Source: Thuidium tamariscinum
Taxonomy: Eukaryota; Streptophyta; Bryopsida; Hypnales; Thuidiaceae
Length of the DNA stretch: 64,000 nucleotides
NCBI GenBank assembly: GCA_947034885.2
Contig: OX344751.2
Location: forward strand, 14,880,001 to 14,944,000
Direction: 5' to 3'
A model generated the notes under the pieces. The model did not search any database and was not told the DNA's origin. It saw only the letters and a list, made by a program, of their open reading frames with translations. Position numbers and translations under genes: made by a program. Numbering within the stretch: the first letter of the stretch is position 1; every line of letters starts with the position of its first letter. Positions 328 to 50,804 of the stretch are shown piece after piece.

Positions 328-1264
328 TCGCCTAAGCTCCAAATGGATCAAAAAGCATCTTTGTTTTTCAAGTCTTGTAAAGTTAAATGTCAATAAGATA
401 TGAAAATCTCAACCATACAATCTTATAGTGTGCATGTTGTAGATGATGTGGATCAAATTTGGAGTCATTTGGCTGCATAGATTGCAAGATTATAATGTTT
501 TAGTCTTGAAAAAGATGTTGAAATTTTCCTAAAAACACATGTGGAGGTGAAACCTCAATCCTAAACCTACTCAAATGAACAAACTTTAAACTACAAAGTG
601 ATTTGAAAACAAAATACAAATACATTGGTGAAAAGAAATTTCATTCAAATGCTTTGAAATAATTGCAAAATGACTTTAAAATGTAAAAAACACATCTATG
701 ATTGCACCTCCTTCTACTAAAATGCTTCTGAGTCACTCATAACTTCTTGGATTGATATGAAGTCTTAGCCGCAAACTAGACTACAATGCACAACTTTTCC
801 AACAAAAATGATTAGAAACAAACATTGTATTAGGAAGAAAGAAGCCGCCGAAATTCATTGTAAACAAAAAATGTTTGGCTTTTGAACTTTGAATTTCTCC
901 CTAACATTCAAAACAACTTGGATTTCCACGAAATTTGATCACAATAACTAGACTTCTAGAAGAACATAACCCAACAAATTTTATTGAAAAAAAACATTGG
1001 ATGAAGGATATACAAGCCCCCAAAGTTGCAGCCATCAACTATAGTTTAGTGAACTCAAAATGAACCTGTGAACTTCGATTGGTTCCAAAAATATTTTTAC
1101 TTCTTGGATTGATCTGAAAATTTTACCAAACAAACTAGACTTGAATGCACAACTTTTCCAATAAGTTTGATTGAATTTGAACATTGGATGAAAAAGTTAA
1201 AGCAATTTGAATTAGACTGCCAAACTATGTGAGGATACTTTTTGTCCCTTTAGGTGATGAAGGG
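328..1264. mobile_element. TTAA-flanked nonautonomous DNA element, subfamily B copy 1
   Basis: The body aligns by eye along most of its length with 20758-21712. Both contain the same block about a bound, accumulating series of 'cacaacttttccaac' and 'gaacattggatga' phrases. TTAA lies at 324-327 and 1265-1268. The right terminus read inward is CCCTTCATCACC. The left terminus, TCGCCTAAGC, is degenerate but lines up with the left end of copy 2. No transposase frame is present, so it would depend on an enzyme supplied elsewhere. The four-base border and C-rich ends suggest a piggyBac-like type. This is an older copy than subfamily A. Confidence 0.6.
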
Positions 1265-1617
1265 TTAATCACACCTCCTTCAAAAAACAAAATTCTATAA
1301 AGTGAGAGAAGTTGGTGAGAGGAATTAAAGAAGGATCAATGGATTTCCATTGTGCATGAAGGTGTGACCCCCCTTTTTGTTGTTTGGAGTAGGGAGTATC
1401 AAGTCTTGGAGAATGCATTACCTGTATAGTTGAATGGGAGTACTACAAGCCATGTGCAACCAACCAAAATAAAAAATTCTTCAAGAACATTTCTTTACTT
1501 CCAAAGGAGAAGAATCGCCACTTAGAATTCTCAAAGAATTGGAGCTCCACATGCCATGAACAACCAACAAAAAAAAATGCAAGGTGTGCATTCTCCAAGA
1601 ATTGCAATTGAGGTGAA

Positions 1618-5049: not shown

Positions 5050-6126
5050 AAGAAGGCCCACCTCTCAAAATTATAAGAGGGGGTGAGGTGGGGGTCAGAT
5101 TTAGAAGTTTCTGAAATTTAAAAATTTAATACTTAACATTTAAATCAGATTGGGAGGGGAGGGGTCTCAAAATAATTAAAATTTTAAATTTTTTTACTTT
5201 TTGAGCTCATTGTGACACAGTTTGTCACAATGACAATGAGCTCAAAAGAGGCAGTTACTGCCTCAGCACAACAAATGGTACTTACATCCATTGCTGAAAG
5301 TCTTCTTGAATGTCGGTGCACTATAAAGTACAAAATTGTGAGCATGGTTTATAATTGATGACTTCATGTGTTCATTAAATTTTTCACCACATCAGGCCTT
5401 ATTACCTACCTCTGTGAAGTGACACAACTTTTTGTCGATCAGCTTTTACACGGTACAAACCTTGTTGTCCATCTCCATCTCCATAAAACTTTGCCCCTCT
5501 CACCCTTTGCAGAATACAAAGTTCGCTGTCTGTCACCCTCTTCAAAATTTTGTCAATTAACCTCAGCACAGCTATTGTCCTCTCACTTTCTACGAAGTAC
5601 AAATCTGCTGTGTATGACTGACCCTCTTGTATTTTACACCTACCTGAAGTCCTTTGGCGCTTGCTTTCGTAGCTCTCAGCCTTTACACAGCGTTAGCTCG
5701 TGTGTCATGTAAGGCTGGAATGCGAGCCAAATTAAAAAAAGGTGCATAGGAAGCAGAGATCCTGTAACAGATTTCAAGTCACAAGCGGAGATTCCAATAA
5801 AGTGGGGGCAAATGACAAGGAGACAGAAAGTTGGCAAATACACAATTTGAGGAAGAGAATTTTACTCATTTTTGCAAATTTGTGGATTAAATGAGACTTC
5901 AGCATGTACAGATTGCGGGACGGATTGTTTTTAAAGAATGAGCAGAACAAAAAGTATCGCCTACCAAAATTGCATTGCCTAATTACATCCTCGTTGATAC
6001 TACCTCACCATAATGTTACAGAGGCCTGTTACAGAGGCCTGTTACCGGCGGCCTGAGTTATGTGGAGAAAATAGTGGTGACCAGGATTCAATATTGGGTT
6101 TCATCCCCCGTAGTTTCGGCTAATCA
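5050..6126. other. Region 3' of the isopentenyltransferase gene
   Basis: A plus-strand frame of 114 codons at 5368-5712 has no recognisable domain. A short direct duplication of 'gttacagaggcct' lies at about 6015-6042. The 3' untranslated region of the minus-strand gene should end here, but I see no convincing AATAAA signal. Confidence 0.35.
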
Positions 6127-9100: not shown

Positions 9101-9668
9101 TGACATTCTTGAAAAGGACATCAAACTTGCAAACACAGAGTGGCGGACGACCTAGCTTCGACATCCACATTGTGTGATTGCTCGAGCAGTAGTGAGCTCG
9201 AAATTGGACGACGCACAAACAGAGGAAGTAGGAAGTGGACTCCAAGTCGAGAGTGGCGAAGGTTGCGAGTTATAAAGAACTGACTGATCAGCAGGAACCC
9301 CTGTTCTGAGGCATTGAGAAAACAAGAATTTCTATGGGACGCAACAGAAAGATCGAAAATGAGAGGACCAGCAGGCTAGGGACCTGTATGGAATCGGCAC
9401 TGATGATCTCGCCCCTGAGCTGCTTGGCCAAGGCTATCGCGATTCTCGACTTGCCGACGGCCGTCGGCCCTGCAATTACCACCACGCGCCCTTTCTGCGT
9501 GCCCACGCCCGTGACCTTTCGGTCCGCATTGTCCAATCTCCCAGGAGCGAATTCCAAGCACCCCATGTTGTTGTGGTGGTGGTTCTTCTTCTTCGTCGTC
9601 GTCTCGCCGCCTTCTGTGAACGTCCTCGCCTGCCTGCCACCATCGCCCACTGCAACTTTTGCCACCAT
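6127..9668 (-). CDS. IPT9: tRNA dimethylallyltransferase, plant IPT9 type (11 coding exons)
   Basis: The enzyme transfers the isopentenyl group of DMAPP to N6 of A37 in tRNAs, the tRNA route to cis-zeatin. Coding exons (minus strand): 9384-9668, 8792-8845, 8589-8631, 8275-8389, 7926-8130, 7425-7593, 7187-7284, 6907-7001, 6715-6805, 6336-6511, 6127-6220. All introns are GT-AG, phases agree across every junction, and the product is 474 residues. Motifs: P-loop GPTAVGKS (67-74), SADSIQ (90-95), MDVGSAK (about 100-106), VPHHL (115-119), VVGGT (156-160), NDWYHLHRALE (221-231), ending in a KWVKRTQ tail. The C-terminal zinc finger of the cytosolic IPT2/MOD5 type is absent, and the length is close to the ~470 residues I recall for Arabidopsis IPT9. 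I chose ATG 9668 for its CACCATGG context and the resulting length; an in-frame ATG at 9830 would add 54 residues. Odd points: Cys161 where GGTGLYL-type enzymes have Gly, and a Lys/His/Asn-rich N-terminus. No disabling change is visible. Confidence 0.9.
6511..6630. repeat. ~23-bp tandem repeat in intron 9 of the isopentenyltransferase gene
   Basis: About five units of 23-24 bp share 'ctgaactttacacagtactcga' in degenerate form. On the gene strand most units end in a CAG preceded by pyrimidines or T, so the array offers several acceptor-like sites just before exon 10. The acceptor giving the correct phase and homology is the last one, with exon 10 starting at 6511. Confidence 0.75.
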
Positions 9669-11700
9669 GGTGAGTCGCACCAGCTGCTGCTTCTTCTTCT
9701 GCCGCAGTCGCACCTGTAGCTCCATCCGCCGAAAGTCCTTGCATTGTGGCTGCTGGCCCCCATTCCCCCGTCCCACCACCAATTCCCCGCCTCGACTGGA
9801 CCAGCAAGGACATGCTTTCTGAGTCCACATGTAGCTCCCCTCGCTCGCCCTCGCCGCAAGATCACCAAGAAAATGATCCCCCAAAGATCAAACGCACTCG
9901 CAAACCCAAACCCAAACCCCCAAAATATCTCAGAAAACTCAGAAATCAATCCAATCGATCCCCAATGATGCTCCCCGTCCACAGCCCGTCTGAATCCCAC
10001 CCAAAAAGGAGGCGCTAGCTCATTACACCAAGCACGAGATCAGCAGCGACCAACTGGGAGGCAATGAAGGAGAGTCTGCACTGGATCACACTCCCGAAAG
10101 AGTCTCTCATCCCAAAGAGATCAGCACTGTCTTGCTCACGCACTCCCTCACTCGCTCAGAAAAAAACATGCGGTGTGTAAGTTTGGTTCCCAGTGCGCGC
10201 AGCTTCTGTGCGGCCAAAGAAGAATAATCAGCAGGCCAGGGAATGAATGGAGGAATGAAGTAATGAATGAGGAGGGAATGAGTGGCAGGAAGCTCCAGGT
10301 CTCCTCCAGCCTGCTATGACTGCGCAGACCTGCCCTGCCCTGCACGAGCAGAAGACTGCTAATCAATCAACAGTCGTAACTTAGCAGTAGTCCTTCGTCT
10401 TCTTCTTCGTCCAAGTACGATGGCATTGGCAATTAATGGACGAGCAAGGAAGGCTGGGGCAAGTGAAGGAGGAACCAATCAAATAAGCTACGAAGCTAAT
10501 AAGGAGGCGCGTGCTCTTCCTCTGCACTGGCAGGCCAACGAAGTGGGAGTTCGCGGCCTGAGAAGCCGCGGTTTGTCCTGTTGTGCAGTGGAAGCTGAGA
10601 GGAGGCTGAAGCCCAGCAGTGAACCCAGGAGTGAGGAGGCGCTAGAAGGAGGCGGGTCCCGTTGGCTTTCATTCCAAAGCGGCTGACTGGCTGCAAGGGC
10701 GGACTTAAGCTATCATATTGGGTGCGGCAGTCGAGGCCCCGAAAGCTGCTACTGCTGCAGCAGCTGCTGGTGCAGCGGAATCGCTAGACTGATGACATGA
10801 GCCTCGAATGTGTGCGTTGGCAAGCATTGGAAGCCTACTTACTCGTCGTCGTCATCTCCCCACCACCCCCACCCCACCCCACCCCACCCCCAAGTCCCCA
10901 ACGCCACGCCAGGCTCACACTGGCGTCCTTGTTCCCAGGATTTCCAGGGACTTGAGGGATTTCAGGGACTGAAGTCACTGAACTCCAGGGACTTGAGGGA
11001 CTCCTTCCTCCTGTCCAAGACTGTCTGAGCTAAGATAGGAGGCCAGCAACCATAGCGGCAGGAGTACTAATAAGTTATCATAGCACCGTCCTCCGCCGCA
11101 ATGGAAACGGACCGTCTCTTCGCCTCCCTGGCTGTCCTGCCTGCTTGCCTGTTGGAGTGCCTGCCTCCCTGCCTGTTTACCTGCCTGCCCGTCCGCGATT
11201 GATCCCTGTTGCCGTGCCTCCACTGCGACTCTGCAAGCGAGCGAAGGAGGCCACGCCAGTCCAGTCCAGTCCAGGAGGGTGGGGCCTAGATTTGCTCCTC
11301 CTACGTTACTGCCCCGTTATTTAAAGTTCCTCGTAACGAAGTGTAGTGTGGGAGTGGGCGACTGGGTTGGTGTGGCGCTGGGGGCGTTGGGGGCGTTGGG
11401 CGGTCCTACCGTCTGTTCAGTTCCTGTGTTCCTGTGTCGCGGCGTGACCAGCGTTGTCCTATGTTTCTGTGCTCCTTATCTCATGGGCCGGGTACGCCCC
11501 CCCGCACTCATGCGCTGTTGCACTGGCACTTGCGGCAGCGTCCCACCCTGATTTCTGGAGAAGTGCAATAGCCGGGACTCCGGGGAGGGAGTGTCCTTCC
11601 TTGCTGCTCATGAGGAGAGAAAGAGAGTGAGAGAGGAAAACAAAACTCCGATTCAAGGCCGTCAGTATGTTTCAAATTCTTTTTCAAATTAATCATTTAA
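9669..11700. other. GC-richer 5' region of the isopentenyltransferase gene
   Basis: This presumably holds the 5' untranslated region and promoter of the minus-strand gene. The gene-strand frame stays open upstream to 9830, the alternative start. There are C-rich CCCCA repeats at about 10860-10892 and a degenerate CTGCCTGC array at about 11130-11195. Plus-strand frames at 10420-10686 and 11279-11551 have no recognisable domain. I cannot place a transcription start. Confidence 0.4.
10858..10892. repeat. CCCCA-rich simple repeat
   Basis: Short runs of CCCCACCCCA units form a C-rich strand opposite a G-rich one. It lies about 1.2 kb upstream of the preferred start codon of the isopentenyltransferase gene. 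Confidence 0.7.
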
Positions 11701-19279: not shown

Positions 19280-19556
19280 TAAGGTGGATACACCCAAAAG
19301 TGCAACTAACCTTAAAGCACCATCCATAATCTATATACATTTCCAAAATCAATCATGTATACAGGCTATAGATGGCACTTCTAGAAACAAGCTTTGATCC
19401 TTAATAACTTTTGCATACTATATCCAAATGTTGTTTTCTTTGGTGCATAGGAATGTGCTTTTACTTGCCATCAAAACTATATGAAAATCAAAACACCTTT
19501 ATAGGAGTAACTAGGCACATGTCCAATTTGTGGTGCTTTTGAGTGTACCCACCTTA
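19280..19556. mobile_element. Complete TA-flanked MITE with AGGTGG ends
   Basis: The two ends are inverted copies of AGGTGGRTACACYCAAAAG, each bordered by TA, giving an element of about 273 bp with no coding capacity. TA borders are typical of mariner/Stowaway-type insertions, though the terminal sequence is not the classic Stowaway one. Truncated relatives lie at 1720-1955 and 40315-40552. Confidence 0.75.
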
Positions 19557-19566
19557 AGGTAAATCA

Positions 19567-19700
19567 TCCCATGATAGACCAAATGGGAGTAGACCCATTG
19601 TGGGTCAAATTGTACAGGGGTGTACATTTAAGAACTTGAATGTTCACCTCTACTATAATCTGACCCACAATGGGTTTGCTCCCATTTATTTTGTAATGGG
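19567..19700. mobile_element. Short foldback MITE, ~130 bp
   Basis: Two arms of about 45 bp, 19581-19625 and 19641-19688, are inverted copies sharing 'acccattgtgggtca' and 'aaatgggag'. They are separated by a loop of about 15 bp. The sequence could form a long hairpin. It lies directly beside the AGGTGG element and the repeat continuing to 20105. Confidence 0.7.
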
Positions 19701-19704
19701 GTAG

Positions 19705-20110
19705 TTTACCATACAATGGAAACACCCAAAACCGTCCAAATAAGGAACTCAGCATAGTTGGAGGCAATGTTTTCTAAAAATGATATTTTTCTAGTATTAG
19801 CAAGTGAAAATCGTGAATATTATTAAAAAAAATTAGATTTTTTAGATATAGTATGTAATTTCTACAAACTTTTAAAGTGTTGGCCCCCTAGACCTGTGGA
19901 ACCATCCTGTAGGTGCCTCCCAAACTGAACCCTGCGAAAATTAGTACTCAGCCAATCAAATTTTCCTACGTATCCTTTAGTTGTGTCAGCAAATTACAAT
20001 CATACATGTGGCGAACACATTAAGAAAAGTCTACTGACGCATTTCGATGAATCTACAGTTCATTGCAAGGAACAAGTGCGAGAATGGGTGTTTTGCCCTT
20101 ATATACCTTA
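19705..20110. repeat. Repeat Q, uninterrupted copy containing an unoccupied TTAA site
   Basis: This stretch matches, on the opposite strand, the two blocks 38960-39079 and 40019-40315. The match is collinear except that the second locus carries a 939-bp insertion at TTAA. Here the corresponding site is a single TTAA at 20020-20023. This copy therefore records the state before insertion. Confidence 0.85.
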
Positions 20111-20757
20111 ATTTATGCACCTTTGATGTCAAACACACAAAAAACACCATGGTGCAGCACTACTCGGGTTCTGCAAACGATGAAGGGCTCTCATCTCAAT
20201 CACGCCCTCCAGCCAGCCAGCCAGCCACTACCCAGTGTTAACTTAGTGAAATGAGCGGCGGTGGCGGCGGAGTCGAGTTAAGGTATAAATCAATTCTGTA
20301 TGTGATCATTACCTGGCCTTTCGTGGCAGCTCGGTGAGCTCCGTTGGTGCAGGTCTCAATCATCAGTCCGGCATGGGTCTGGAGCCGTACCGAGGTCCAG
20401 CCTTTCTCCCCAACTTCAACTGCTCTTTTTCCTTTTGCAGGCCGAAGGAAAAAAAATACAAAACTCAAGCCATGTAAGTTAAGTGAAGTAGCTGAACTTG
20501 TAGCCGAGCGGAGCCAAGGTGCGCACACACTGCACTAAAATGGTGCCGGCTTATAAAACAGTGTGCTGCCCAGCTTTTATATCATTGCCTTCGTCCTGAT
20601 AAGGTTTGTGCTTGTCAGCAGCTACAAGTACACTACAATACCATTGAGAGAGGGAGAGAGAGAGAGAGTGTCACCGCTTAACTTGTTGGAGGTCAATGGA
20701 AGAAACTATTGAAGTTGAGTTAAGGTAAGGTAGTCTACTCCTAAAGTGATTGTTTAA
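20111..20757. other. GC-richer island with simple repeats; possible exon
   Basis: AGCC repeats lie at about 20212-20226 and a GA tract at about 20645-20670. On the minus strand a frame at 20238-20528 reads into a plausible splice donor (CAG followed by GTAATG near 20310), which would suit an exon end. I do not recognise the peptide, so this stays a possibility only. Confidence 0.3.
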
Positions 20758-21712
20758 TCCCTCAAGGCCTGTGGCAGAAACATGTTCAAAAACATCGTAG
20801 CTTTTGAAGCCTTATAGATCTAAATGTCACTAAGCTATACAAATCTCAACTGTGCAATCTTGTAGTAGACATGTTGTAGATGACATGTACAAAATTTGGA
20901 GTCATTTGACTGCATAGATTGCAAGATTATAATGTTTTAGTGCTGAAAATGGATGTTGAAATTTTCCCGAAAACACATTCAAAGGTGAAATTTGATTTCT
21001 AAACCTACTCAAATGAAAAAAATTTACACTACAAAGTGATTCAAAACTAGTATACAAACATATTGGTGAAAAAAGAATTCACTCAATTAACTCATTGTGT
21101 CTACAAAACAACTTTGAAATGTCAAAAATTAGCAAGAAAAACTACAAAAACTACATCTAAGGTTGAACCTCCATTTACTAGAACGCTTCTCAGTCACTCA
21201 TTACTTCTTGGATTGACATGAAACTTTAGTCACACAAATTAGACTAGTATGCGCAACTTTTTCAACAAATTTTATTGAAAATGGACTCTATATGAAGAAG
21301 AAACAACCCGTCAAAGTTTATTATATTTCAAAAATGGCAAGGTTTTGAACTTTGAATTGCTCCCAAACATTCAAAACAACTTGAATTGACACGAAAATTT
21401 TACCACACAAACTAGATTTCAAGGGAAACAAAATCCAGTAAATATAATTGAAAATGATCATTTGATGAAAGAGAAACAAGCCCCTAAAATGGAGTTTCTG
21501 AACTCAAATTGAACCTGTGAACTTTGATTGGCTGCCAAAAAGTCATCACGTTTTGGATCAATTTGAAAATTTTACCACACAAACTAGAAGACAACATGCA
21601 ACTTTCCCAACAAGTTTTGTTGAGTTCGAACATTAGATGCAAAAGTTATAGCACTTTGAATTTAACTAAAAACTTTGAAATGCGCTATTTGCGCCCTTGG
21701 GGCGTTGAGGGG
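20758..21712. mobile_element. TTAA-flanked nonautonomous DNA element, subfamily B copy 2
   Basis: TTAA borders lie at 20754-20757 and 21713-21716. Termini read inward are TCCCTCAAGGCC on the left and CCCCTCAACGCC on the right, an imperfect inverted pair. The 955-bp body aligns with the copy at 328-1264. There is no transposase frame. The plus-strand frame at 21524-21763 runs out of the element and looks accidental. Confidence 0.75.
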
Positions 21713-21885
21713 TTAAGAGCTGATTGTGTTTTGGGGAATCTAGATTCCTTGAAACAATTTTGAGTAAATTTTGATAGGAAGAAAAATGGAATTGGCATCT
21801 TACTCAAGTTGTTTTATATTTTTTGGACCTTCATGGAATTAACTTAGTTACTAAATTTTGAAGGTGAAATTGTTGTAGTCACTAG

Positions 21886-24280: not shown

Positions 24281-24289
24281 TTACCTTAG

Positions 24290-24640
24290 AATTTCTCATA
24301 ACTTTCATCCCATTAATCAAAATGGAATGATTCAAAGTTTTTTTTATGTACATATAAACCTAAATTATCAGTTTGAAATTTTTATTTCTTAAAAAAATGA
24401 TTTTTGAAGAAGTTTTTTGACTTGCTTGGGCTTTGTGCCAAGCAATGAAAATCACATGTTGTACAATAACTCTTTAACCATGTAGTCAACAATTTTGAAA
24501 ATTGTTGGATTTTAAAGCTATTCTATGAGCACATGTTGTGTGAATTTTTCAAAAAAAATTAAAGAAAAATTCCATTTGTAGTAAGCTGCCCAAAATCTCA
24601 GTGTTGTCAAAAAATGTAGTTTGGGCATTTGAAGGCTAAT
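24290..24640 (-). mobile_element. Truncated subfamily A TTAA element, inverted
   Basis: Read on the minus strand, this stretch follows the left part of the elements at 36290, 39080 and 49375: 'gacaaca..gagattttgggcag', 'cacacaacatgtgctc', 'caacaattttca', 'ttgactacatgg'. The right part is missing at the junction with the foldback element. It is the only copy in this orientation. Confidence 0.65.
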
Positions 24641-27499
24641 GTGGATCCTTGATATTAGACAACTTGTCATCAAGGCTTTTTTTAAAAAACTAGTGTCCTC
24701 TAAACTAGCTTTGTTGCACTAGCCAATTTTTGGAGGGACCATTGTTGATTCATCAAATTTTGACATATTTGGCAATATTTTGCCAAGATAGGCCTTGCTT
24801 GTCATTGGATGAAGGTACCCTGAGTTTGGGGTTTAGAGTTTATTTGGGACAATGTTTGCGTTGTATTGCTCTAACAACAATCCTATTCTTAATTTAAGGT
24901 GTTTTTTGTTTGGCCCAAGGAGATCACTTAATGTATTCAAAACAAATTACATGTGTTAAAATGATTTTTTGATCTGCTATATATTTTTTAATAAACTATG
25001 ATTTCAACCTATAATTTTGAAATGTGCTTAATAATGACCATAGGTTTCTATTGCCAAAAATTTTGAACTCAAATAACATTATGAAATGATTTCTAAAATA
25101 GATTGTAAAATGAACTAAAATGGAATGTTTTTCAACTCAAATATTTATAGAAAATGCATTTAAATGACCATGGCATCAATATTCAAGAAAATTTAATTTC
25201 CAATGAAAATTTATTTTCAGCAATTTTTTGTTCAATTTTTAGACAATTTTTTCTTATATAAAATAGGGGTGTGAAAGTTATTTTCAACTTTACATTATTA
25301 TTTTTTTACTTCAAAAATTTGTAACTAATTATAATCAATACATAAAAATATCAATAATTCAAATTATCGACTTTCAAAGTAGGAGAATTTTTTTTTTTTT
25401 CATTTAAATTTTAGGACATAAAATAGGAGGTCTAAAATCTTAACACACGTGGTTACTAATAGACACTCTAAGTAATCTCCCTGAGTTGTTTGGTTAGTGG
25501 CTTTGAATGCAACTAAGGTTAAAGTAGAATAAGGCTTGCAAGAGTTGCACCTCTTCTTTTCTCCATGGTTTTGGGCATTTGGTCAAGGGCACTCACATTT
25601 TTCTCTTATTTGGATCTAAAAGTAGGTTAAACAATGTATTGTATATTACAAGTAATTATATTGCTTTATAATTTATAAGTTCATTTTGTATTATCTTGTT
25701 GTGAACATGTTGGTAGGTATTTGCTATCAATTGCAAGTGTAGCTAGTCTCCATTTACATCTTTTGGTTAATTATTAGAAGGAATATTTTAATTGTATCCC
25801 ATACAATATGTGATAGTCATCAAAGTCAAGAAAGTTTATCCTATTGTAAACTCATTTAGGGGGTTGTCTTGCTAAACAAGCAGATGCAAGATTTGAACAC
25901 CAAGCCCTTTGTTTAGCCATGTAGAAAGTGGTAGTAATATGCATAGTAATGATTGAGTGATCCTAGAAAAGCTACAATATGTGAAGCCTGGGTGGATCAC
26001 TCCTTGCAGTTTAAAAACCACATACGACATAATATAGCATGGATTTTATTGTTTCAAGGTAAAATTTATAAAGGATTTACAAATAAATAGTAGCAGACTT
26101 TCAAAATCAAAGATGCATTATAAGTAAAATAGGTAGCTAAAAAATCTCAAGTATTAAAAAAATTTATATATAATTTAAGGATTAAAAATTAGGATCTTGG
26201 AAATTGTATTTAGCAGGGTCAATTTTATTTAGAACTGGTTTAGGATTTAGGATTTTAGGATTTAAGTTCTATGGCATGTAAAAGACAATCCCTTCTGTTT
26301 TTTGAGTCGTACATTCAAAATTGATTCTTGTTTAGAACCCATGGATGACATTAATTTTTTCTCATTTTTCAAAGCATTGCAATTTTTATAAACTGTGATT
26401 CTATTGTTTGCCTTTCATGCATTGTCAAACTATGTTTTTTATGCATTGCAGAAGTTCTTATACATTCAATTTTTGGATTTTTGTATATTGCAAGTGATAA
26501 AATTGTCATACTAGTTCACTTGATTGAATTCTATATACAAAAAAAGGGTGTGATAGTAGAAAAGAATATTGAGCCAAGTAAACATCCCAACTTTTCATGC
26601 AAATTTCCTTGATCTTCTCTCTAACCTTCTTGCTTTTAATTTTCTCTTCAATTCACAATTTTTCCTTATAAAGAAAATATCCTAGAAAAAAATACTTTTA
26701 CCTACATAATATAAGTAAATATAGGGCACCATAATATAGGACATTTTCACAAATTATGTAATTATAGATGACCATTTATTCAAACCTTCGAGGTAAATAG
26801 CCCCCCCCAAAAAATACCCCCTCACTACACGGGGTGGGGGTGGAGTATGAAACATACAAAGAGTGATCCACCTAAGATGTGAAGTTTCAAACAAATTGTA
26901 AAGTCTTTACCTATAGCCAAAACTTAACTCAATGCATCAATCCTAGTTGATGGCTTTATTTTTACATGCCTTGACGGTTACAAAGCTAAAAAAATTTGTG
27001 CCAAACTTTTTGTACATAATGGCATGAATATGAATATGCACTCTCTTGTGCAACAATTGTGGATTGCACCAACAACATGGTTGTAGTATTTTCTAAGATG
27101 TGCTACAATTTCTTGTATGATGTAATAGGCTCACACATTTAGGTCATTGAAGAATGAGTGTATGTCTTATAAATTAAGCATGATGCTTAATTTGCTTAGT
27201 TTTATATGGATTCAACAATTTTGATGTTGCACTTTTTAATTCTAAACTAGCTATGTCTTTTGCATTATATTCTTTGGTTCTGTTGTTGAGCTTATTTGTA
27301 TATATATACTATTGTAAATGTAAAGAATGCTAGATGCCCTTCATTGATGTCAATTTTTTTCTACTCATTGTATATTTGTTTATTCATTCAAGTAGAATAT
27401 TACATATTTGACATTTACATATGTTTTATTGGTCTAGATAGGAATTGGTTTTACAAATGAATCAAAGTACAAAAACACGTAGCTAGAGGAGGCTAATAA
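24641..27499. other. AT-rich block, nothing recognised
   Basis: Only short random frames are present. A run of C followed by 'aaaaaataccccc' at about 26802-26820 and a G-rich 'ggggtggggg' at 26830-26840 interrupt the AT-rich sequence. No gene or bounded repeat could be supported. Confidence 0.4.
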
Positions 27500-36285: not shown

Positions 36286-36289
36286 TTAA

Positions 36290-37212
36290 CCCCCAAATGA
36301 CCAACATGCTTTTTTTTGACAACATAGCGATTTTGGGCAGGTACGTGTGACTAGAGATTTCCATGTTTTGGGACCAAAATTTAATAGAAGGTGTGGATGA
36401 GGAATATCTTTAAAGTCCAACAATTTTCATGACTTTTGACTTCATGGCTAAGAAGTTATCGTACAATATGTTGTTTGTTTTTCAACTTGGACAATTCAAG
36501 CAGATTAGAAAAAATCACCTTTTTTGGAATAAAAAATTTGAAATTGATTTTATAGATTTATATATACATGGAAAGCTTTGAATCATTTCATTTGGATTAA
36601 TGAGTCAAAAGTTATGAAGGATTCTAGTTTGTCGGTAGTTATGGATTCTCTACTCTAAAATAAACTTTGAAGTCCTCTATTTTACTCAATTTTCAATATT
36701 TTTGAAAAAAAATTAAAAAATTGGGTGTAGATTTTTATTACAACATTTGAAACTTTGGGATTGGCATTTTTCAATTCAATAAATAAATTGTTATCATTTT
36801 TGTATTTTGAATCATTCTCTACTTCTTTCTACTTCTTATTTTTTTGTACATGTTGTACAATTCCAAATCGTTTGAAAATTTCAAGCATGTAGCCAACTTT
36901 GAAGTGAAGAATGATTTCAAAGAGTTGCAACCATTTTGGACATTTTTTCATACAAATGTAGCCTTCTGAAGTGCAATTGCCCGTATTTTTGCAGTGGTAA
37001 AAAATGATTTTTGTAACTTTAAACACTAATATCTTGCAATCTACACAGCAAAAAAATTTGATATTTTTTTTACATCTTTATAAAATAGTGCACTAAAATA
37101 TCCTATGGTTATATATGTCAAAAAATCTTTTTTTTGTGAAATGTGGTAGTTGTCCTAGAAATGATAGTTTTGGAGCAATTTTGGTGGAAACATAGTTGCG
37201 GTCCTTTAGGGG
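36290..37212 (+). mobile_element. TTAA-flanked nonautonomous DNA element, subfamily A copy 1
   Basis: Borders are TTAA at 36286-36289 and 37213-37216. The right terminus read inward is CCCCTAAAGGACC; the left, CCCCCAAATGACC, differs at a few bases. The 923-bp body contains the family blocks 'aacatagcgattttgggcag', 'gacttcatggctaagaagtta', 'ctcta.ttcttttctact'-like sequence and 'tgttgtacaattccaaat' in the order seen in the other copies. It lacks a transposase frame. Confidence 0.85.
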
Positions 37213-37216
37213 TTAA

Positions 37217-38959: not shown

Positions 38960-39079
38960 TGCATGCAAGAGTGCCACGTTTCTAAGGTATGTGCACATGA
39001 GGACAAAACACCCATTCCCGCACCTGTTCCTTGCAGTGGATTGTAGATTCACCCAAATGCGTCAGTAGACTTCCCTTAA
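38960..39079 (-). repeat. Repeat Q, left half of the interrupted copy
   Basis: On the minus strand this matches 20020-20110. It ends at TTAA (39076-39079), where the 939-bp element begins. Confidence 0.8.
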
Positions 39080-40018
39080 CCCCCTAAAGGACCAATCTGC
39101 ATTTTTTTGGCAACATAGCGATTTTGGGCAGCTCACTACGGATGGAGTTTTTATTTTTTTTTCATTGAAATTTTCACACAACATGTGCTCAAGGGGTAGC
39201 TTTAAGGCCCAACAATTTTCATAACTTTTGACTACATGGTCAAAAAGTTATTGCCTGATATATAGTTTTCATTGGTCGGCGGGAAGCCCAAAAATTTCTT
39301 ATAAAAACTTTTTTTTCAAAATTAAAAATTTGAAATTGGTTTTCTAGATGTACATATATGCAGAAATCTTTAAATCACTCCATTTTGATTTATGAGACGA
39401 AAGTTATAAAGAGATTTAGTTTGCGGACAGGTGTGGATTCTCTACTCTAAAATAAACCTTGAAAGCCTTTATTTTCCTCAATTTTAAATATTTTTGAAAA
39501 AAAATTAAAAATTTGGATGTTGATTGTTTGTCACAACATTACAACCATTGGGATTGACATTTTTTTAATTCTATAAATAAAATTTTAACAATTTAGTATT
39601 TTGAATCACTCTCTACTTCTTTCTACTTATTAATTTTTTCCTATATGTTGTATAATTCCAAATGTTGCAAATTTTTTTAGCATATAGCCAACTTGCTGTG
39701 AAGAATGAATCCAAAGAAGCACCACCATTTTGGACATTTTTTCATAGAAATGTGACCTTGTGAAGTGCAGTTGCCCGCTTTTTTGCAGGGACAAAAAAAG
39801 GGTTTTTGTCAATTCAAATGTTAATATCTTCCCGAATATCTTGCAATCTATATGGTGGAAAATTCTGAAATTTTTTCCACATCTTTTCACACAAGTGTAC
39901 TATAAGATCGTACAGTTACACGTGTCTAAACATGTTTTTTTCAAAAATTTGGTGCTTGAAGTAGACATGGCAGTTTTGGTGTGTTTTTGGTGAAGACATA
40001 GTCTCTGACCTTTAGGGG
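39080..40018 (+). mobile_element. TTAA-flanked DNA element, subfamily A copy 2, with empty site in window
   Basis: Borders are TTAA at 39076-39079 and 40019-40022. Termini read inward are CCCCCTAAAGGACC and CCCCTAAAGGTCAG. Removing 939 bp plus one TTAA restores repeat Q exactly as it stands, inverted, around 20020-20023. This is a direct filled/empty site pair and defines both ends. The minus-strand 86-codon frame at 39630-39890 is not a recognisable transposase. Confidence 0.92.
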
Positions 40019-40315
40019 TTAATGTGTTCACTACATGTATGATTGTAATTTGCTGACACAACTAAAGGACACATAGGGAAATTTGGTTGGTTGAGTGATG
40101 ATTTTTGCAGGGTTCAGTTTTGGGGGCACCTACAGGATGATTCCACAGGTCTAGGGAGCCAACACTTTGAAAATTTGTAGAAATTACATACTATATTTGA
40201 AAAATCTATTTTTTTTAATATTCATGATTTTCACTCGCTAATACTAGGGAAAATATCATTTTCAGAAAACGTTGCCTCCAACTATACTGAATTCCTTATT
40301 TGGACGTTTTTGGGT
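40019..40315 (-). repeat. Repeat Q, right half of the interrupted copy
   Basis: It matches 19705-20023 on the opposite strand, including 'tacatgtatgattgtaattt', 'cctacaggatg' and the terminal block ending 'ttttgggtgtttcca'. It runs straight into the AGGTGG MITE remnant. Confidence 0.8.
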
Positions 40316-40552
40316 GTTTCCACTATACATTTCCAGAATCAGTCATGTTCACAGATTGTAGATGGTGCTTTCAAAAACTGACTGTGATTGTTAATAACTT
40401 TTGCACACGGTATCCAAATCCCACGTTCTTTGGTGTGTTGGAACATGCTTTCACTTGCCAACAAGATTGCATGAAAATCTGAACAAGCTAATATCAATAA
40501 CAATATCTAGGCACAATATGAATAAGTGGCGCTTTTGGGTGTACCCACCTTA
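40316..40552. mobile_element. Truncated AGGTGG MITE
   Basis: It follows the inner and right parts of 19282-19554 and ends with the intact inverted terminus 'gtgtacccaccttag'. The left terminus is lost at the junction with repeat Q. Confidence 0.7.
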
Positions 40553-42837: not shown

Positions 42838-45380
42838 CCCTCTTTTTTAGCTCCAAGATCCTTCAAGGAGTTGCTTTGTTAGTTGTGTCTTGTTGCAGGC
42901 TTTGGCATCTCTGGGCGGCGACGATGAAAGTCTCGAACCTTCAAAGGTGCATAGGTTATATTTAAAGGTGTCTCCCACGTTCGTTCGCTAATTGGATATT
43001 CTCACCAATGAACAAAATACTCTAATTGTTCTTGCTGAATTCTTAAATAAAAAATGTCTTCAACTTCGTATTCTTAGTGACCATCCATCTCAATATTAGG
43101 TGGAGGAGCTTAGACTTTGCTAGGAAGGTTGGATTCTTTATAGAGTTCTAAGAGAGAAGTATGAAAGACAGGATGTATCTTCATAGTTACTGGTAAATCC
43201 AATTGATATGTGACAATGTTGATCTGTTTCTGAATGTGAAACAGTCCAGTTCCTTTGATAGTCAAGTTTGTCGCATGGACGAGAAGTCTTAATGTTGTGT
43301 CATAAAAGCCAGACCTTATTGCCTTCTTGAAATTTAGGTTGCTCCTTTATTTTAACCCCTAAAGCCCTGAACATCGTTTTTTGAGATTATAAATTTTTTG
43401 GGCAGCTCACTATGGATGGAGTTTTTATTTTTTTTCTTTGAAATTTTAATACAATGTGTGCCCAAGGAGTAGCTTTAAGGCCCGACAATTTTCATAACTT
43501 TTGAATTCACGATTTAAAAGTTATAGTAGGATATGTTGTTTTCTTTACTTGGCGGGCAGCATGGGCAGCTGAAAAAACTTCTTCAAAAAAACTTTAAAAA
43601 AAAAGTGAAATGTCAAATTGGTTCTTTAGGTTTATACATACATGGGAAGATTTGAATCAATCCATTCCAATCAATGAGTCAAAAGTTATGAAGATTTTGA
43701 GTTTGGAGTAGTTTGTAGCCAGTTTCAAAATCTCTAACAGTACAAAAAAAGTTTGAAATTCTTCATTTAATTCAATTTTTCATATTTTTGGAAAAAAATA
43801 AAAACAGAAGGTGTAGATTGTTTATTACAACATTTTTACCATTGGGATTGAAGATTTTCAATTCCATGAATAAAATGTTCACAATTTAGTATTTTGGCTC
43901 ATTTTTTACTTCTTTCTACTCACTTATTTTTTCCTATATGTTGTACAATTCCAAATGGTTTGAAATTTTTTGAGAATGTAGCCAACTTGCATTGAAGTAT
44001 GAATTCAAAGAGTAACCACCAGTTTGAATTTTTTTTCACACAAATGTGACCTTGTGAAGTGCAACGGCCCGGATTTTCGCAGGGATAAAAAAACAATTTT
44101 TGTCAATTCAAATGCTTATATCTTGCAATCTACATGGTAGAAATTTCTGAAATTTTTTCCACATGTTTACAAACCACCTTACTACAAGATCCTATAGTTA
44201 CATGAGTCAATTTAAATGTGTTTTTAAAAAACAATTTGCACTTGTATTAGAAATGACAATTTTGGAGCATTTTTGGTGAAAACATAGTCAAAAACCTTTA
44301 GGGGTTAACATCAACTGATTTTTTGTACTGGACTTGAGCTTCTTTAAGACTTGATTTCATTATCGTTTGTAGTTCTTTCAGTCATGTTGCAAAATTCTCC
44401 ATTACAACACTACTAGATTCTTCCCTTTCTAAGTTGGTTGTATATTGATTCTAGGATGATAAGTATAATTGGTGTAGAACGGCATTTGCTGAGTCGAGGC
44501 GTGTATACTATTATTATAATCAAATTTCACCAATGATATCAAGGATGTCCAATTATCTTGTTGATAATTAATATTACAACGCAAATATTGCTCCAAGACT
44601 TAATTTACTTGTTCAATTTGACCATCTATCTAAGGATGAAATGCCGATGAAAGTTTGATCTTGACTTGTAAGATTTCAAAAAACACTTGCCAGAATTTGA
44701 AAACAAATTGGGGACCGTGATCAAAGATAATGTGTTCAGGTAGGTCATGATGGCAATGTATGTTGTTGAGAAAGAGTTTTGTTGTTTCTTTGCTGATGAT
44801 TGTCTTCCGACATGGTATAAAATGTGCCATTTTGGAAAATTGATCTACTAGTACACATATGGGTTTGAACTTCTTCGAGAGTGGAAGGTCTGTAATAAAG
44901 TCTATAGAAACAAAGGACCAAGACTTCTTTGGAATTGGAAGTGGTTAAAGCAACCCGTAAAGACAATGTTGAGGGTTCTTCGAGCAAGAATAGATGTCGC
45001 AGGATAAGACAAAATTCGTAAGGATCCTTCACATTTGAGGCCACCAAAAATTATGAGAAATAAACTCCAAAATTTTGTTGAATCCAAAATGTTCAACTAT
45101 TGGAAGGTCATGTCGAGTTTGCAGAATTTGGAGGCATAGTGGTTTGTCAAGAACATAGAGACAATCTTGAAAATATATAAATTGGTCTTTGATGTAGACT
45201 GTACTAAAATTTTCAGAATTATTTGAAAGATGTTGCTTGATGTCAAGTACTAAAAGATCAGTGACAAAAGTTTTCTAAACTTCTTCTAAGAACTTAGAAT
45301 CAGTTGGAGCAGAGATATGAGTTGCTCGTAAACAAAGGCGTTTAGGCTTCAGAAGTGTCGTTTGTTATTGATCATATGTT
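42838..45380 (-). pseudogene. Ty3/gypsy chromovirus integrase and chromodomain remnant
   Basis: Read on the minus strand from high to low coordinate there is the zinc-binding region with a GHFG-like 'EHFGFNK', then WWPQM, the core-domain start with 'KMAHFIPC', 'DHGPQF' and 'KLSSAFHP', the C-terminal 'VWLL' and 'PCDKLDY' region, 'KIHPVFH', and a chromodomain-like stretch near 42995-43095 with 'EYFVHW'. Stops and frameshifts break it throughout. A subfamily A element at 43356-44304 interrupts it. The upstream half (RT and RNase H) is displaced to 51450-52700 by insertions. Confidence 0.85.
43356..44304 (+). mobile_element. TTAA-flanked nonautonomous DNA element, subfamily A copy 3
   Basis: TTAA borders lie at 43352-43355 and 44305-44308. 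Inward termini are CCCCTAAAGCCC and CCCCTAAAGGTTTT. The 949-bp body follows the family pattern. It lies inside the chromovirus between the integrase core and the C-terminal region, so it inserted after the retroelement. Confidence 0.87.
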
Positions 45381-48946: not shown

Positions 48947-49374
48947 ATTAATAATCGATATTACAAACATTAGATTTTTGACCAAATTAGAAAGAGTTGG
49001 AAAGGGAATTCACAGCTCACAATTTTCGATTTTCTGTCAAGAATCTCACATTTGCAACATTCATAAGTCTTCACCAAATTTCTACAAACTCAAACGCCAT
49101 AACCTTTGTCTCTCCTAACAAAATTGCAAAACATCCCAAATACAAGAATGAGGGGGGAATGAAGGAATTAGGAGGATTAAGGTTGCGGGAAGAAACACAC
49201 GTAAAGGAATTAGTATTAAAAAACTAATTTCTAAAGAATAACACTGTTGAATTTGGTTCTTTATTCTTTGGCTTTGACCTTTGACAATAAAAAATTAATT
49301 TTTTTAGAATATTACTATTGAAATTGTTCTCATTCTTCGGGTTTGTTCTATATTCTTTGGTAGTTAGTTATTAA

Positions 49375-50300
49375 CCCTTAAAGGACAAAACTGCGTTTTT
49401 TGGCAACATAGCAATTTTGGGCAACTCACTACAAATGGAGTTTTAATTTTTTTTCATTGAAATTTTCACACAACATGTGCCCAAGGAGTAGCTTTAAGGC
49501 CTAACAACTTTCATAACTTTTGACTACATGGTCAAAAAGTTATTGCATGATATGTAGTTTTCATTGGTCAGCAGGCAGCCCAAAAATTTCTTATAAAAAC
49601 ATTTTTCTTAAAATTAAAAATTTGAAATTGGTTTTCTAGATGTATATATATGTAGAAAGCTTTAAATCATCCTATTTTGATTTATAAGATGAAAGTTATG
49701 AGGAGATTTAGTTTGCGGGCAGTTATGGATTTTCTACTCTAAAATAAACTTTGGAAGCCTTTACTTTACTCAATTTTAAATATTTTTGAAAAAAAATTAA
49801 AATTTTGGATGTTGATTGTTTGTCACAACATTACAACCATTGGGATTGGCCTTCTTTTTTGTTCTATAATAAAATTTTAACAATTTAGTACTTTGTATCA
49901 CTCTCTACTTCTTTCTACTCATTAATTTTTTCCTATATGTTGTACAATTCCAAATGATGCGAATTTTTTTGAACATGTAGCCAACTTTCCATGAAGAATG
50001 AATCCAAAGAAGCACCACCATTTTGGGCATTTTTTCATAGAAATGTCACCTTGAGAAGTGTAGCTGCCCGATTTTTTGCAGGGACAAAAAAAGGTTTTTT
50101 GTCAATTCAAATGCTAATATCTTGCAATTTATACGGTGAAAAATTCTGAAATTTTTTCCACATCTTTTCACCCAAGTTTACTATAAGATCTTACAGTTCT
50201 ATGTGTCTAAAAATGTTTTTTTTCAAAAATTTGGTACTTGAAGTAGAAATGGTAGTTTTGGTGTGTTTCTGGTGAAGACATAGTCTTTGACCTTTAGGGG
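49375..50300 (+). mobile_element. TTAA-flanked DNA element, subfamily A copy 4, with empty sites in window
   Basis: TTAA borders lie at 49371-49374 and 50301-50304. Inward termini are CCCTTAAAGGAC and CCCCTAAAGGTC. The equivalent position in X copy 2 (TTAA at 62090-62093) and X copy 3 (63913-63916, inverted) is a single TTAA without insertion. The body is very close to copy 2 at 39080. It lacks a transposase frame. Confidence 0.92.
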
Positions 50301-50804
50301 TTAATTAGATTTTTGGAAGGTTTGAATTTTTTTGGCTTTGTTTTATTATGCCTAACAAGCCAAAAAGGAAAAAACAAAATTGACAACCAATTTCTTTAAG
50401 AATTAGGGGAAATTAAAATTTTAATTAGATTTGAAAAGATTTGATTAGATTTTTAGATTATAAATAAATAAATTTGAATTTGAATTTAGGCTAGAAATTA
50501 TAAAATGAAAAAAAATTAACAAATATCAACAAATTAGTTAGAATCAACAATTGACTTTCCTTTAGAATAGATTTATTTGTTGGAAATTTAAATTACTCAA
50601 GTTGTTAGGGATTCATTAGTGGAATAAATTAACTTGTGGTATTTTTCTAATTACCAAAAAATTAGGAATTAATAAAAATATGCAATTAATTTAAATTTCC
50701 ATAACCATTAGTGTTTTGGAATTAGGATCATTTCCCATTTACCAACAAAAGTGGAAAATTATCATGAACTAGTTTATATGGATGGGCAAGATGAATCCAA
50801 CGGG

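Follow-up and report, generated by a model that had tools for sequence, protein, structure and literature searches.

The closest described counterpart of the element studied here is found in the coral Acropora, where MITEs (CMITEs) with TTAA duplications and CCC-type ends occur together with AmiPB1, an autonomous piggyBac element that has the same inverted repeats as the MITEs and weak similarity to them in the interior (PMC2872659, in its available part). The same available text gives the ends of piggyBac elements as inverted repeats of 12–19 bp with a CC[C/T]T motif (PMC2872659). The coral system belongs to an animal host and includes tandem arrays, whereas the present one belongs to a land plant, consists of ~930-bp units in several subfamilies with one common end of 14–17 bp, and has a partner of 7.1 kb in which additional frames upstream are conserved (PMC2872659, same portion). 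For plants, piggyBac is stated in passing as known in the accessible text of PMC10813416, and the accessible text of PMC2874221 has a one-sentence statement on piggyBac elements in plants; neither portion names a plant. An excerpt of PMC12732532 describes piggyBac mostly from animals, fungi and protists, and gives beetle elements of 2.1–3.5 kb with a single frame; the piggyBac elements of the present host are 5–7 kb long, and one clade of them has additional conserved upstream modules that are putatively coding. PiggyBac MITEs of angiosperms carry that label as a classification (PMC10004981, in the portion available), and for the fern Ceratopteris a repeat table lists 1,230 PiggyBac copies as a count only (PMC6890710, likewise in part), whereas in the present genome transposase-coding elements with ends matching those of the MITE were found. 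We conclude, with a probability of roughly 95%, that the element is a non-autonomous piggyBac MITE that is inserted into TTAA by cut-and-paste, with the transposase supplied in trans by ~7.1-kb elements of the type found on C1 and C5 of the host genome.

The window, that is, the whole stretch of 64 kb that was analysed, contains this MITE-like element at 39076..40022 on the plus strand. Direct reading resolved it into a TTAA (39076..39079), a body of 939 bp (39080..40018) and a second TTAA (40019..40022), and the alignment described below identified the two TTAAs as a target-site duplication. The left terminal inverted repeat (39080..39090, plus strand) is CCCCCTAAAGG in this copy and CCCCTAAAGG in the family form, and the right one (40009..40018, minus strand) is CCTTTAGGGG, which reads CCCCTAAAGG when inverted. 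The ends of the element are CCCC(C)TAAAGG...CCTTTAGGGG, the window copy having one additional C at the left end where nearly all other copies have TTAACCCCTAAAGG. The left flank reads ...gacttccc before TTAA and the right flank tgtgttc... after the second TTAA, and the inverted repeat at 20 kb (reverse complement of 19500–20400) reads ...gacttttc TTAA tgtgttc..., with a single TTAA at 20020..20023 on the minus strand. This host repeat copy without the insertion (19717..20110, minus strand) aligns to ~38983–39079 and 40019–40322. When the flanks at 39 kb were fused by script with one TTAA, they gave one unbroken alignment to the inverted 20-kb repeat, which indicates that the insertion comprises 939 bp and a second TTAA and nothing more. 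The continuity of this alignment agrees with the sequence-only reading, which had claimed a TTAA insertion with an empty site 19 kb away and the duplication of TTAA alone. The empty site is paralogous and not allelic. For Acropora, an allele with and an allele without insertion are described (PMC2872659, available part). Since piggyBac excision is usually precise according to the same portion of that paper (PMC2872659), the empty site is compatible both with a place that was never occupied and with one that the element has left again.

When the genome was searched with the 947-bp sequence, 42 matches were obtained, and 40 of these, including the window copy, were near full length with 88–100% identity. 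The copy counts of the family are lower bounds because scoring covered 40 out of 10,742 first-look candidates. The aligned length was 926–949 bp in 38 of the 40 copies and 866 and 907 bp in the remaining two. Both ends were kept in 39 copies, in differing flanks, and the right end was gone in L040; the ends are the CCCC...GGGG that had been noticed from the window alone and that direct reading found there. TTAA was present on both sides of 33 copies, 31 of them recognized by script and two judged by eye because they are shifted by an extra C (the window copy) or an extra A (L032). Genome copies without TTAA flanks, which the sequence-only reading had named as the contrary outcome, accordingly did not prevail. 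Other perfect 4-bp duplications were found in four copies (ATAT in L007, TTAT in L016 and L029, ATAA in L036), indicating that the target choice is not absolute, and the flanks were unequal in L017 and L031. The 40 copies diverged from the column majority by 2.3–8.0%, with a median pairwise divergence of 6.2% and 3.1% in the closest pair, and this star-like divergence suggests a burst from one source. No coding frame was seen in the family, the longest stop-free frame of its majority sequence having 91 codons. The family is short, non-coding, uniform in length and high in copy number, as MITEs are. The plant MITEs Tourist and Stowaway are likewise short non-coding elements. They belong to PIF/Harbinger and Tc1/mariner, respectively, and Tourist has TAA/TTA duplications, whereas TTAA is duplicated here (PMC10004981, in the portion available).

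Inside TTAA, the inverted repeats CCCCTAAAGG are perfect for 10 bp and then broken, with CCCT starting one base in; those of the sister subfamilies L084 and L086 match over 14 bp. Measured against the CC[C/T]T motif and the 12–19 bp given for piggyBac, the CCCCT tip and the 10-bp perfect repeat are a small departure. The 14-bp end TTAACCCCTAAAGG has 8,526 exact occurrences in the 363 Mb of the genome, compared with 2 for the reversed control. A 34-bp left end has 183 exact matches genome-wide (reversed control, 0), and TTAACCCCTAAAGGACC, in which four positions are set against the window element's subfamily, occurs 1,528 times (control, 0). Several subfamilies of ~930 bp have the TTAACCCCTAAAGG end in common, as read from one copy each of three of them (L084, L085 and L086). 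Just inside the ends of L084 and L086 lies a short G+C-rich palindrome (TTGTCCCCTCGGGGGACAA, AGTCCCCTCGGGGGACT).

Three more full-length relatives with TTAA at both ends were found in the window, all on the plus strand: a 931-bp relative at 36286..37216, with the right end TTAACCCCTAAAGGACCGCAACTATG, which belongs to another subfamily (87.4% to L085); a 957-bp relative at 43352..44308, which is ~75–77% identical to the others compared; and a 934-bp copy at 49371..50304, which belongs to the window element's subfamily (91.6% to L003). A partial relative lies at 24287..24642 on the minus strand. The piggyBac reading of the window element made from the sequence alone stands, with the refinements that the element is non-autonomous and MITE-like, that it belongs to a very large family and that the window contains three further full-length relatives. 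The region 20754–21716 probably represents a second piggyBac-type MITE family, with the left end TTAATCCCTCAAGGCC and the inverted right end TTAACCCCTCAACGCCCC; its part 21570–21716 is 73.5% identical to L044, and the same part of L044 is 78.3% identical to window positions 1121–1271. A tblastn search at E 0.001, for which 30 loci each contributed their longest frame, detected no transposase relic in the window. A gene resembling tRNA isopentenyltransferase probably has its first exon at 9288–9884 on the minus strand (PF01745, E 0.00016, barely over the cut-off).

Searching for the piggyBac transposase domain PF13843 (DDE_Tnp_1_7) revealed at least 116 matches over the cut-off in the host genome (116 of 659 candidates scored) and none over the cut-off in 14 control genomes. 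Two transposase-coding elements have both ends in common with the MITE. The C1 element (42570958–42578078) is complete, 7,121 bp long and bounded by TTAA at both ends, with its transposase (L066) at 42573199–42574338 on the minus strand, and the C5 element (28977113–28984195) likewise has TTAA at both ends, both of which were read. The sequence inside the left inverted repeat of the window element resembles the 5' ends of these two elements. Of the first 40 bases at the 5' end of C1, 36 agree with the left end of the family copy L002, and BLAST aligned this 5' end to L002 with 70.6% identity over 211 bp (E 4e-21) and to the window copy with 69.9% over 146 bp (E 9e-11). At the 5' end of C5, 35 of 40 bases agree with L002; its BLAST identity to L002 is 88.9% over 54 bp (E 1e-15), and that to the window copy is 83.9% over 56 bp (E 3e-10). 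The 3' end of C1, TTAACCCCTAAAGGTC, equals the MITE right end over 16 exact bases (95% over 20), and that of C5 matches it with 86.7% over 30 bp.

The C1 transposase frame runs for 629 codons without a stop and matches PF13843 with E 2.9e-79. By phmmer, the L066 protein matched the solved structures of piggyBat (9c0f, E 1e-26) and piggyBac (6x67, E 1.8e-22). Aspartates 268, 346 and 447 of 6x67_C, which we take to be the catalytic triad, align with aspartates of the L066 protein, which also has a Cys-rich C-terminal stretch. The host protein thus resembles piggyBac (6x67/6x68) and piggyBat (9c0f) in the transposase-domain match, the three aligned aspartates and the Cys-rich C-terminus. Against the genome, the L066 protein gave at least 71 listed matches (70 of 839 candidates scored), the best 33 of which had 63–100% identity. 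Six of the listed matches extend from residue 44 or earlier to residue 622 or later without a stop, and it is from this search that the C5 frame is known to be free of stops. The transposase source that the sequence-only reading had looked to for a decision therefore lies in elements (C1 and C5) that share both ends with the MITE and encode DDE_Tnp_1_7 transposases.

Upstream of the transposase, C1 and C5 have two further frames in common, one with 51% identity over 169 aa (E 3e-52), the other with 39% over 146 aa (E 3e-12). These frames were recognized by their conservation between C1 and C5 and are located at 264–929 of L134 and 3552–4130 of L066, both on the minus strand, and in the upstream part of C5 (L142, L144). 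They have a conserved core around NPQP.NYRHHFYKQAA.CLGWCE, and the DNA of the two elements matches only in stretches, with 69–74% identity. Changes at third codon positions are moderately commoner than at the other two (112 versus 84 and 76 in one frame, 131 versus 100 and 95 in the other). The C1 upstream frames, one of them represented in part, gave no Pfam match even with the E-value limit set to 1. These frames could be N-terminal exons, or they could encode a second protein. At 5287–5926 of the C1 element, counted 5' to 3', a 130-bp tandem repeat of 4.9 copies lies 3' of the transposase frame.

To control the pairing of the MITE with these elements, the first 16 bases of the ends were omitted and the scores were compared with 100 shuffles, each represented by its highest score among 14 MITE ends. 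Over the remaining sequence, from base 17, the 5' ends of C1 and C5 scored 39 and 48 against the left end of the window copy, where the shuffles reached at most 26 and 29, and the 3' ends scored 25 and 19 against its right end, where the shuffles reached at most 25 and 28. Since the 3' ends were no better than shuffles against the window copy, the pairing rests on the left end and the exact right tip. The 3' end of C1 rose above the shuffles only against a sister MITE (41 versus 25), and that of C5 scored 33, which exceeded the shuffle maximum of 28 in one run and, as its best score over all MITE ends, equalled the maximum in another. The three C1/C5 ends other than the 3' end of C5 were checked for an opposite MITE end ~930 bp inside, and none was found. 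The 3' end of C5 is 75.5% identical to that of C1 over 139 bp (E 1e-20), and it is thus unlikely that a stray MITE lies at the 3' end of C5. Past ~211 bp from the left and 20–30 bp from the right, the MITE body showed only scattered short matches to the C1/C5 pieces, and an origin of the MITE by simple internal deletion of C1 or C5 is therefore unsupported.

The readable ends of the other transposase families in the genome are of the TTAACCC type without AAAGG, often with CGCC. A survey of 351-bp windows placed 1,150–1,500 bp 3' of the domain, covering 40 of 86 transposase places, found a TTAACCC-type end in 20 of the 40, and one more with one mismatch in L114; TTAACCCCTAAAGG was present in none of the 40 windows. 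Six further pieces yielded L130, the lead to the C1/C5 partner. Among another eight, L139 yielded the 3' end of C5, and the other seven had no end with an AAAGG or AAATG word. L083, a pair of inverted ends 3.4 kb apart, was rejected as an autonomous partner, being a nest of MITEs with no transposase-sized frame.

Another candidate was the L053 family, which was chosen for its recent copies. Compared with L053 over 3,984 bp, nine of the copies L054–L063 differ by 1 bp and one by 2 bp, and the eleven copies lie in eleven different flanks, indicating that the family transposed recently; one copy was read to its far end (C2:31544938-31550030). Mobilisation of the MITE mainly by a different piggyBac lineage such as this one, and not by the C1/C5 clade, nevertheless seems unlikely to us. 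Such a lineage would have the TTAACCC-type ends common to the host families whose ends were read, the L053 family offers its eleven nearly identical copies, and the 3' end of L094, from an unrelated family, scored 39 against a sister MITE with a shuffle maximum of 26. However, the subterminal scores at the left end favour C1/C5, whereas the two ends of L053 reached no more than 18 and 17 with the seven MITEs compared, scores that do not exceed their shuffle means, and L053 was rejected as the partner on this ground.

The duplication of TTAA alone fits both piggyBac and Kolobok, and the sequence-only reading had therefore made the terminal sequence a decider. Kolobok ends are described as 5'-RR...YY-3' with a TTAA duplication (PMC9587614, in its accessible part). 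Kolobok fails on this comparison, because the ends here are 5'-CCCC...GGGG-3', and the elements that have both ends in common with the MITE encode PF13843 transposases, which speaks against Sola3 as well; a Kolobok or Sola3 MITE, which would likewise account for the duplicated TTAA, is thus highly improbable. In a further copy of the host repeat, the TTAA matching the window element's site is occupied at C7:10018462 by an element that belongs to another family and whose 3' end lies there, as seen on one flank, and a transposase match lies 1.3 kb upstream of this end (L123, C7:10018266-10018616, position 197). Loss of 943 bp between two TTAA direct repeats in the 20-kb repeat copy, with no transposon insertion, would give an identical empty sequence, but its probability is negligible given that copies of the 939-bp unit with the same ends occur in different flanks and that the transposase-coding L123 element stands at the same TTAA.

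For the piggyBac MITE moved in trans, the following course is proposed. The MITE, which has no gene, would depend on a piggyBac transposase of the C1/C5 type supplied in trans. This enzyme would recognise and bind the common ends, that is, TTAACCCCTAAAGG and the left subterminal region, cut the MITE out at TTAA and paste it at another TTAA, which would be duplicated. By analogy with known piggyBac biology, the donor site would usually be restored. The TTAA insertion into a repeat with its duplication, the common ends, a transposase frame in which three aspartates align and the high copy number were observed directly; that a C1/C5-type transposase moves these MITE copies is the probable interpretation. 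Judged from sequence, the superfamily is piggyBac, with a mechanism of the ordinary piggyBac kind and with an unusual host and scale.

The genome (363 Mb, 19 contigs) contains 49 matches to the chlorophyll a/b-binding family. Among the best 120 of 512 matches to one LHCII frame (L077), the closest named organism was Sphagnum (92% over the whole query), followed by Ceratopteris and Marchantia (88%) and then seed plants, and the best unnamed match had 94%; rows ranked higher by score were longer or fused proteins with lower identity or coverage. These matches point to a land plant, most likely a moss, as the host. Since such plant genes are located on the large contigs that also carry the piggyBac elements, contamination is unlikely. 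In a maximum-likelihood tree of 39 chosen transposase rows, which was rooted at the midpoint and in which several named rows were long-branched, nine host proteins and ten unnamed environmental proteins formed one group (100/99) without named animal or fungal rows. Within this group the host rows were interleaved with the environmental ones, requiring at least six changes. The host proteins are distant in sequence from piggyBac and piggyBat and, in the 39-row tree, group apart from the named animal and fungal rows. No named plant appeared among the listed matches of the L053 protein (48) or the L066 protein (97), and most of these matches were nameless. Annotated plant proteomes often mask transposons. 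For these two reasons, the missing named plants are weak evidence of absence.

The present results describe an apparently new host lineage for a known mechanism. On balance we lean slightly towards the view that this moss-lineage plant has its own long-standing piggyBac radiation, with several transposase lineages in one group that lacks named animal sequences, continuing movement of at least one family, and MITEs mobilised in trans that number in the thousands. In the open-access literature, covered by titles and the starts of abstracts, with subscription journals and Repbase outside the scope, an endogenous moss piggyBac was not found, and a Physcomitrella paper, in its available part, mentions the moth piggyBac as a possible tool only (PMC5505980). 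The piggyBac transposon is a standard tool of genome engineering. The present genome, in which numerous transposase frames are intact, recent copies are nearly identical and MITE ends occur by the thousand, offers a candidate endogenous plant piggyBac system, with which the time of entry of piggyBac into plants and its control in bryophyte genomes could be addressed.
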